Below, one piece after another: positions 41,307-42,113 of a stretch of DNA of 64,000 nucleotides. Every line of letters starts with the position of its first letter. Within the stretch, counting starts at the first letter, position 1. Source of the stretch: Microbacterium luteum (GTDB taxonomy: Bacteria; Actinomycetota; Actinomycetes; Actinomycetales; Microbacteriaceae); contig NZ_CP063814.1 of NCBI RefSeq assembly GCF_015277875.1, positions 992,001 to 1,056,000 on the forward strand, in the 5' to 3' direction. Both the position numbers and the translations under genes were made by a program. The notes beneath the pieces are model-generated. The model did not search any database. It had not been told where the DNA came from and was given only the letters and a program-made list of their open reading frames with translations.

Positions 41307-42113
41307 ATGATCGCCAGCCCGGATGGCGCGCACGCCAACTGGCCCTTCATGGGGTCGATCTATGGCGTCAGCGAACGGGGATCGTCCGAGGTTCGATACG
41401 TCGGTCTGACGACGAAGCTCGTGAGTCGCAGAAGGATCGAGCACTGGAAGTCGGCGGAAGCCGGCCGAAGGACTCCCTTCGCAGACTGGCTCCGGTCCAG
41501 GCGCGATCGTGAGGTGGTCGTCTTTCGTTCGTTGGAGGTGATCATGGGGACTGAGTTGAGTGAACTCGGTAACGCTGAGCAGCGGTGGATCTCGCACTTC
41601 CGCGCGTCCGGCCATCGACTCCTGAACGTGACGGACGGTGGCCTGGGCCCAAGGGGGTACGTCTGGACGGTGGAGCAGCGGGCTGCTGCGAGCCTGCGGA
41701 GCAAGGGGCGAAAGCACCCCAACCCGCTGCGCGGTGAGGACAACCCGATGTGGGGTCGGCGACACAGCGACGAACAGAAGGCGATCTGGTCAGAGCTCCG
41801 GCGTGGATCCATCACAGGCGAGAAGAACCCGAATTGGAATCGCCGCGGGGCGGATCATCCGTCGTTCGGTCGTACGTGGACGGATGAGCAGCGTGAGCGC
41901 CTCTCGGCGTCGCGCCGAGGAGAGAAGAATCCCAACTTCGGCAAGACGGCGAGCGAGGAGACACGGGCCAAGATGTCGGCGGCGCGTCGCGGCCGCCCAA
42001 TGCCCTCGAGTGTGCGCAGCGCCCACACGAGACATCACACCAACAAAGGAATCGTCTCGGAAACATGCCGGCACTGCCGAGACGACCAGTTGAACAGCAA
42101 TTCAGAGGAATGA
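41307..42113 (+). CDS. Free-standing GIY-YIG / NUMOD3 homing endonuclease inside the nrd operon
   Basis: The 268-residue protein has a GIY-YIG nuclease domain at about 15-105: [28 protein letters not shown], and Glu/Asn of [10 protein letters not shown] and RLLNVTDGG. Several NUMOD3 DNA-binding repeats follow ([51 protein letters not shown]). A C-terminal [11 protein letters not shown] could bind zinc. Such proteins are typical of phage homing endonucleases, for example T4 MobE between nrdA and nrdB. It starts 12 bp after the nrdE stop and ends 4 bp before nrdF; the nrdF ribosome binding site AGAGGA lies within its last codons. It is expected to cut an intron-less, HEG-less nrd locus and spread by gene conversion. 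Confidence 0.9.

Follow-up and report, generated by a model that had tools for sequence, protein, structure and literature searches.

The window, a 64,000-nucleotide stretch of Microbacterium luteum DNA, contains a class Ib ribonucleotide reductase (RNR) operon made up of nrdH, nrdI, nrdE and nrdF, all with strong family matches and all on the forward strand. The first two genes, nrdH (glutaredoxin-like; 38455–38688; TIGR02194, 107 bits) and nrdI (flavodoxin-like; 38692–39156; TIGR00333, 148 bits), are followed by a complete nrdE of 718 aa (39138–41294), which matches TIGR04170 at 1257 bits over the full model length. A complete nrdF of 324 aa (42118–43092) is supported by Pfam and NCBIfam family matches. 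Between nrdE and nrdF, on the same strand, lies an ATG-initiated ORF of 268 aa (41307–42113), assigned from domain, homologue and fold evidence as a free-standing GIY-YIG/NUMOD3 homing endonuclease gene (hereafter HEG). It begins 12 bases after nrdE and ends 4 bases before nrdF; the coordinates and the full-length matches agree with the first-pass annotation, which had placed such an ORF with this spacing between two complete nrd genes. HEG lies outside any intron or intein: both neighbors are full length, and no Rfam family was found at 38000–44500.

The sequence AGGA at 41296–41299 is probably the Shine–Dalgarno (SD) element of HEG. That of nrdF, AGAGGA at 42104–42109, sits eight bases upstream of the nrdF ATG and falls inside the coding end of HEG, as the first reading of the sequence had proposed. 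In its own genome (3.52 Mb, one contig), HEG is single-copy. A genome search directed at class I/II large subunits gave one match to the barrel family PF02867, namely the nrdE of the window. Because this is the sole such match, the nrd operon is probably essential.

The HEG protein

NUMOD3 was clear in the HEG product (Pfam; 74.9 bits, E = 4.5e-21) and was present in all 46 aligned family members. GIY-YIG matches were fainter. The Pfam match stayed under its cut-off (15.0 versus 22.6 bits), TIGR01453 (group I intron endonuclease) was barely passed (56.6 versus 56.05), and 22 of the 46 family members showed GIY-YIG at E ≤ 0.01. Structure prediction gave the nuclease domain the fold of I-TevI, the GIY-YIG homing endonuclease of the T4 td intron. 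This catalytic domain spans residues 10–111 (41334–41639) and includes Y19, Y31, R42, H46, E91 and N107, whose roles we take to be those of the I-TevI residues. The Tyr/Tyr/Arg/His/Glu/Asn set is kept in 17/17 compared loci, in all of which the HEG ORF runs uninterrupted from start to stop. Four helix repeats, including NUMOD3, follow (residues 122–227; 41670–41987; Pfam and predicted structure) and probably form the DNA-binding part. A PDB search with the single HEG sequence gave no match, and a profile search returned only the I-TevI DNA-binding domain (1i3j), weakly (E = 0.03). Toward the C-terminus, H240, H244, C254 and C257 (42012–42077) are invariant across the 46 aligned sequences and the 17 loci; this HH-CC motif is a putative zinc site.

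We rejected an HNH nuclease identity like that of MobE, as no HNH family was found in HEG in Pfam or NCBIfam and the fold of the nuclease domain is GIY-YIG. One PHROG named HNH endonuclease aligned with part of the repeats (residues 158–216), but at no better than E = 0.069.

Since HEG has 1049 homologs (E ≤ 1e-3) and a low dN/dS (∼0.09–0.19 in nine pairs, rough values with dS near saturation), it is, on these comparisons, a genuine gene and not a chance ORF; it appears to be under purifying selection. GC3 in Microbacterium carriers is 68–82 for HEG versus 91–98 for nrdE and nrdF, where codon bias of the nrd genes may contribute. A near-identical database version of the protein, P0002, is without 53 residues in frame, including E91 and N107, and keeps the C-terminal end whose DNA in the window holds the nrdF ribosome-binding site. 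An apparent internal TAG in the HEG of carrier G187 was dismissed as a sign of a broken gene: HEG ends there, at 264 aa, 20 bp before nrdF.

The start region of nrdF

Of 15 carrier loci in bacteria, 10 have a HEG stop that overlaps the start of nrdF and four have one lying 4, 11, 18 and 20 bases ahead of it, with one start unassigned. Predicted SD pairing of nrdF averaged –7.6 kcal/mol in 14 carriers versus –5.9 kcal/mol in 95 HEG-less loci, so pairing in carriers is not weaker. Folding of the start region did not differ between carriers and HEG-less loci. A scan of the region revealed no promoter match or unusual RNA fold near the HEG or nrdF start, and a terminator-like hairpin within HEG (41503–41521) is near chance expectation (2 in the region versus 0.7 expected, sd 0.9). 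Because the nrdF SD lies inside the HEG ORF and the stop and start overlap in many carriers, HEG has, judged by its anatomy, taken over the nrdF start region. The earlier suggestion that it had taken over nrdF translation thus holds as a statement of anatomy. HEG may, as also suggested there, alter the NrdE:NrdF ratio; the SD predictions point to no weakening of the nrdF site in carriers.

Distribution among bacteria

Nine of 295 genus genomes carry HEG, counting the genome of the window (G000), and 286 are without it. This is not the presence in most relatives that would be expected of a vertically inherited nrd accessory gene. The search for nrdE succeeded in 289 of the 295, and the six misses are 44–87% complete. 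Related Microbacterium genomes include both carriers and HEG-less strains, which it had been advised to look for. All nine genus carriers have HEG between nrdE and nrdF. Wider samples contained it in 3/299 genomes of the family and 1/296 of the phylum, each count including G000, and the two family loci besides that of G000 (L114, L115) again place it at nrdE–nrdF. A scan of genome contigs yielded nine loci, of which five are close relatives at nrdE–nrdF, from Microbacterium, Glaciibacter, Herbiconiux and Leucobacter (one, L002, apparently represents the same genome as G153); the remaining four are weak relatives (25–32% identity) and gave no nrd matches. Altogether, close relatives sit at nrdE–nrdF in 15/15 distinct bacterial loci. 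Agromyces- and Gordonia-named proteins are among the best database matches listed for HEG (120 of 1049 listed). Plasmid matches were weak and came from seven records, all Bacillus.

Two assembly matters came up in this survey. A suspected nrdE frameshift in G042 proved to be a run of Ns at an assembly gap. Two nrdE loci (L086, L125) were found in G151 (72% complete); one of them is very similar to the G226 locus, and the assembly may be contaminated.

At 95 HEG-less genus loci (94 genomes), the nrdE–nrdF gap is 12–95 bp. These short spacers, together with the 286 relatives that do without the gene, weigh against domestication, in which a former HEG would now serve the nrd operon as a regulator or translational element and its nuclease activity would be irrelevant. 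HEG does contain the SD of nrdF, its end runs into the nrdF start in many carriers, and P0002 stays in frame, with the same C-terminal end, despite lacking E91 and N107. Yet the catalytic residues persist in 17/17 loci, and the RNA fold is unremarkable at both start regions. We give domestication very little credence.

Sequence footprints beside HEG

Flank co-conversion is typical of homing and is described for free-standing HEGs in a portion of PMC2988022. Ten carriers (the nine of the genus plus L003) were compared with HEG-less relatives; four of the ten have HEG-less sisters ∼95% identical in nrdE. Identity dips on both sides of HEG in two of these pairs (L117/L137 and L118/L190) and on the nrdF side in a third (L123/L184; 78%), and no distinct dip is seen in the fourth (L122/L191). 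Three HEG-less control pairs showed 92–99% identity in the bins beside the junction. The unusual flank belongs to the carrier in three of the four sister pairs (L117, L118, L123). L122/L191 is the reverse: its unusual nrdF start belongs to the HEG-less member, which counts against homing.

Ten pairs of a carrier and its nearest HEG-less relative were then set against 65 HEG-less control pairs. The identity deficit was 6.3 versus 0.3 points in the last 100 nt of nrdE (p = 1.6e-5) and 8.6 versus 1.0 in the first 100 nt of nrdF (p = 1.1e-4), both p values being optimistic because pairs share rows; the rest of nrdF showed no significant deficit by the same comparison (p = 0.19). At 30-nt resolution, the effect sits in the 30 nt that directly adjoin HEG on either side: identity in the 10 carrier pairs was 71.0% over the last 30 nt of nrdE and 62.3% over the first 30 nt of nrdF, versus 88.5% and 83.7% in 56 controls. 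Single HEG-less control pairs reached deficits of 11.3 and 18.1 points, as large as those of carriers, and this also counts against homing. We tested for a general likeness among the carrier flanks and found no resemblance beyond expectation for the set as a whole. The flank changes could be native sequence that has evolved faster or become cleavage-resistant.

Particular alleles are associated with HEG on both sides. The nrdE tail starts GTDM in 61/95 HEG-less loci, whereas eight of the ten carriers have GTELDT (5) or GTSMD (3), forms seen in none of the 95. In the window, the segment coding ELDTCVSC lies at 41262–41285. A search of the 295 genomes located the ELDT form in six: 4/9 carriers and 2/286 non-carriers. 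The two non-carriers (G076 and G156) have it beside normal spacers, another point against homing; there it reflects either loss of HEG or an allele native to those genomes. In the nrdE tree, G076 lies close to carriers G275 and G042. On the nrdF side, the NEVQAINW allele (42142–42165 in the window) was found in 4/295 genomes, all carriers (G000, G153, G178 and G187; 4/9 versus 0/286) that are spread over three parts of the nrdE tree. Within the opening 48 nt of nrdF, G178 has eight differences from its HEG-less sister but two and three from carriers G153 and G000, respectively. These allele patterns caught attention in a subset of loci before being tallied across every genome, and the tips of the tree are not independent of one another. 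Donor sequence brought in with HEG would account for them, as would cleavage-resistant alleles; either would be a mark of homing. Presence/absence polymorphism at a single site, accompanied by co-conversion of the flanks, is thus seen indirectly and with exceptions (the control-pair deficits, L122/L191, and G076 and G156).

Gain, loss and descent

Among the 10 Microbacterium carriers, the divergence of HEG is correlated with that of nrdE (r = 0.69, Mantel p = 0.001), which counts against rampant jumping. A single Microbacterium HEG clade is not rejected by the AU test (p = 0.10), and the closest two of the ten HEGs are 85% identical. Because of these three observations, we see no sign in the sequences of very recent jumps among these carriers. 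A search for conflict between the HEG and nrdE trees turned up none. Explaining the 10 carriers on a 105-row nrdE tree takes seven changes, at least six of which are forced by well-supported branches.

These results bear on whether HEG is simply old: inherited vertically in Actinobacteria, lost many times and now immobile, with flank differences arising by drift or compensation around the insert. The correlated divergence suits such a history, as do the recurrence of a five-carrier group (L003, L119, L120, L121, L123) in both the HEG and nrdE trees and the possible loss in G076. But one gain followed by losses only would take 23 losses on the midpoint-rooted 105-tip nrdE tree, whose deep branches are weakly supported, versus seven changes with gains allowed. 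Further points against it are the unusual flanks, which belong to the carrier in three of the four close pairs of sisters, the retained catalytic residues and the sharp tract of 150 nt in a phage pair (see below). We regard purely vertical descent as unlikely. The first-pass annotation had set against homing a gene found in all relatives at one place with vertical phylogeny, or one with lost catalytic residues. The same place and a HEG divergence that follows nrdE were indeed found, whereas 286/295 relatives have no such gene and the catalytic residues are all kept. The best reading is that HEG is an old, sparse element, exchanged mostly among relatives and also inherited and lost.

HEG relatives in phages

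A first scan of viral sequences returned mostly weak relatives that were not nrd-linked; nrd genes flank one of 62 loci (L011), with some flanks ending at contig ends. From a second viral set of 21 loci (in which L198 is the same contig as L011), nine were tested for nrd neighbors and L207–L217 stood outside the test. Five of the nine are flanked by nrdE and nrdF, one (L202) by nrdE only, its contig ending before nrdF, and three by neither. HEG thus lies between nrdE and nrdF in viral contigs L011, L197, L199, L200, L201 and L203. The NrdE of L197 is 91% identical to that of the window, and this contig may be bacterial DNA rather than viral. Several genes of L200 have broken frames. L201 is a 158-kb contig whose NrdE is 57% identical.

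HEG matched 51 phage records, and one of the three opened has it at nrdE–nrdF: in Arthrobacter phage Talia1610, gene 111, a HEG relative, overlaps both the end of the large-subunit gene and the start of the small-subunit gene. The search for close relatives in actinophages, recommended earlier, was thereby rewarded. The other two, Gordonia phages GMA2 and Sixama, hold weaker relatives with no RNR gene annotations within 6 kb on each side. Sixama (L075) has two annotated GIY-YIG genes, lying beside genes for nucleotide metabolism (thymidylate kinase/synthase) and DNA metabolism (DNA polymerase I).

Arthrobacter phages Racecar and Mimi are ∼99% identical to Talia1610 across the 4.6 kb that end with nrdE and have no annotated gene in the nrdE–nrdF gap. 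Talia1610 and Racecar nrdE differ at 31 positions in the last 150 nt, at none in the next 450 and at nine in the remaining 1539; the corresponding counts are 31, 1 and 9 for Talia1610 versus Mimi, and 0, 1 and 6 for Racecar versus Mimi. In nrdF, Talia1610 and Racecar differ at 25 positions in the first 300 nt, six in the next 300 and 55 in the last 351, a stretch in which Racecar and Mimi differ from each other as well (21). The 150-nt tract upstream of the Talia1610 HEG is, as a sequence pattern, the clearest apparent co-conversion footprint here; gain by Talia1610 and loss by the others are both compatible with it. The Racecar gap that holds HEG in Talia1610 contains a terminator-like hairpin (L218, 4671–4689). 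An nrdF promoter suspected by eye in this gap was unsupported by a promoter scan. In Microbacterium phage A3Wally, three small hypothetical ORFs lie between the RNR large- and small-subunit genes (L221, 4652–5367).

The same arrangement in phages could mean that HEG is a passenger carried by phages or by ordinary homologous recombination of nrd operons, with no endonuclease-driven homing, and the divergence of Talia1610 and Racecar in the last third of nrdF, distant from HEG, points the same way. However, the insertion point is identical across bacteria and viral contigs with NrdE down to 57% identical. Moreover, outside the junction region the nrdE of carriers still closely resembles that of HEG-less sisters, so short break-repair tracts fit better than operon exchange. 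A passenger role seems to us highly improbable.

Probable homing at the nrdE–nrdF junction

The patchy occurrence (9/295), the single site, the kept catalytic residues and the flanking footprints in bacteria and phage all back the earlier view of a selfish gene at a conserved locus. Taken with the predicted structure, the purifying selection on HEG and its lower GC3 than that of the nrd genes, they make it probable that HEG is a free-standing GIY-YIG homing endonuclease gene with the nrdE–nrdF junction of class Ib operons as its home. Its protein would bind and cut HEG-less nrd junctions through the I-TevI-like nuclease domain, steered to its target by the NUMOD3 repeats and the HH-CC motif. 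Repair of the presumed break from a carrier copy would insert HEG with short donor stretches of the nrdE 3′ and nrdF 5′ ends, of which the observed footprints would be the trace. By its anatomy, HEG has replaced the native spacer, its 3′ end supplying the nrdF ribosome-binding site, often with the stop/start overlap evident in carriers, so a clean loss of HEG would also have to restore that site. Family members are found in both actinobacterial chromosomes and phages and probably persist through a mixture of gain, descent and loss.

A further possibility, which we advance tentatively and hold to be somewhat doubtful, is that a HEG family locked to nrdE–nrdF circulates between actinobacterial chromosomes and large phages with their own class Ib nrd operons, the phages acting as vectors, and that in bacteria it protects itself as the ribosome-binding site of an essential gene. 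If so, deletion without replacement would silence what is apparently the cell's only class I/II RNR.

Free-standing homing endonucleases have been described mainly from phages. We know of no description of a chromosomal, intronless HEG at nrdE–nrdF, and none appeared in the open-licence PMC literature as judged by titles and the beginnings of abstracts. Beyond the shared nuclease fold, HEG differs from I-TevI in being free-standing and located in a bacterial chromosome, in having several repeats of NUMOD3 type and an HH-CC motif at its C-terminus, and in that no intron was found. Like HEG, the T4 Seg endonucleases are encoded by free-standing GIY-YIG genes between host genes; those in the table of PMC2988022 are phage genes, none of them seen there at nrdE–nrdF, whereas HEG is chromosomal in Actinobacteria with the close relatives examined at one site. 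MobE of T4 and Aeh1 is encoded between nrdA and nrdB, and that of T4 had been offered as the parallel. The position between large- and small-subunit RNR genes is indeed shared, but the nuclease type is not, MobE being given as an HNH enzyme in the relevant part of PMC2988022; it is also described from phages and belongs with a class Ia RNR (PMC3653736, in part). The same portion of PMC2988022 discusses the overlap of the MobE start with the upstream stop as translational coupling. Excerpts of PMC3984707 and PMC3653736 describe HEGs in nrdE/nrdF introns and inteins of Bacillus, its phages and other phages. These are, like HEG, invaders of RNR genes, but they lie within nrd genes, whereas the nrdE and nrdF of the window are uninterrupted. 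HEGs are often near RNR genes in phage genomes, according to parts of PMC10448857 and PMC3653736. Bacterial nrdE and nrdF are known intron hosts, and there is little evidence for horizontal movement of bacterial introns among bacterial species, according to sections of PMC3984707.

The locus thus presents a chromosomal, intronless HEG with 286 HEG-less and eight further carrier congeners in one sample, mosaic flanks, and related phages of which some have the gene and some do not. Intronless homing, phage-to-chromosome exchange and the stabilization of a selfish gene by capture of its neighbor's ribosome-binding site could be tested with it in soil bacteria and their phages.

Genes downstream of nrdF

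Directly after nrdF, at 43456–45419, the window holds an N-terminal fragment of a phage-type integrase (Pfam matches weak, below cut-off), which ends at a Mutator-family transposase gene. Eight ORFs scanned at 45942–60893 include M48 peptidase-like and CtaG-like genes, two P-type ATPases, a histidinol dehydrogenase and two further transposase genes. This segment looks like a mobile metal-related island adjoining the nrd operon.
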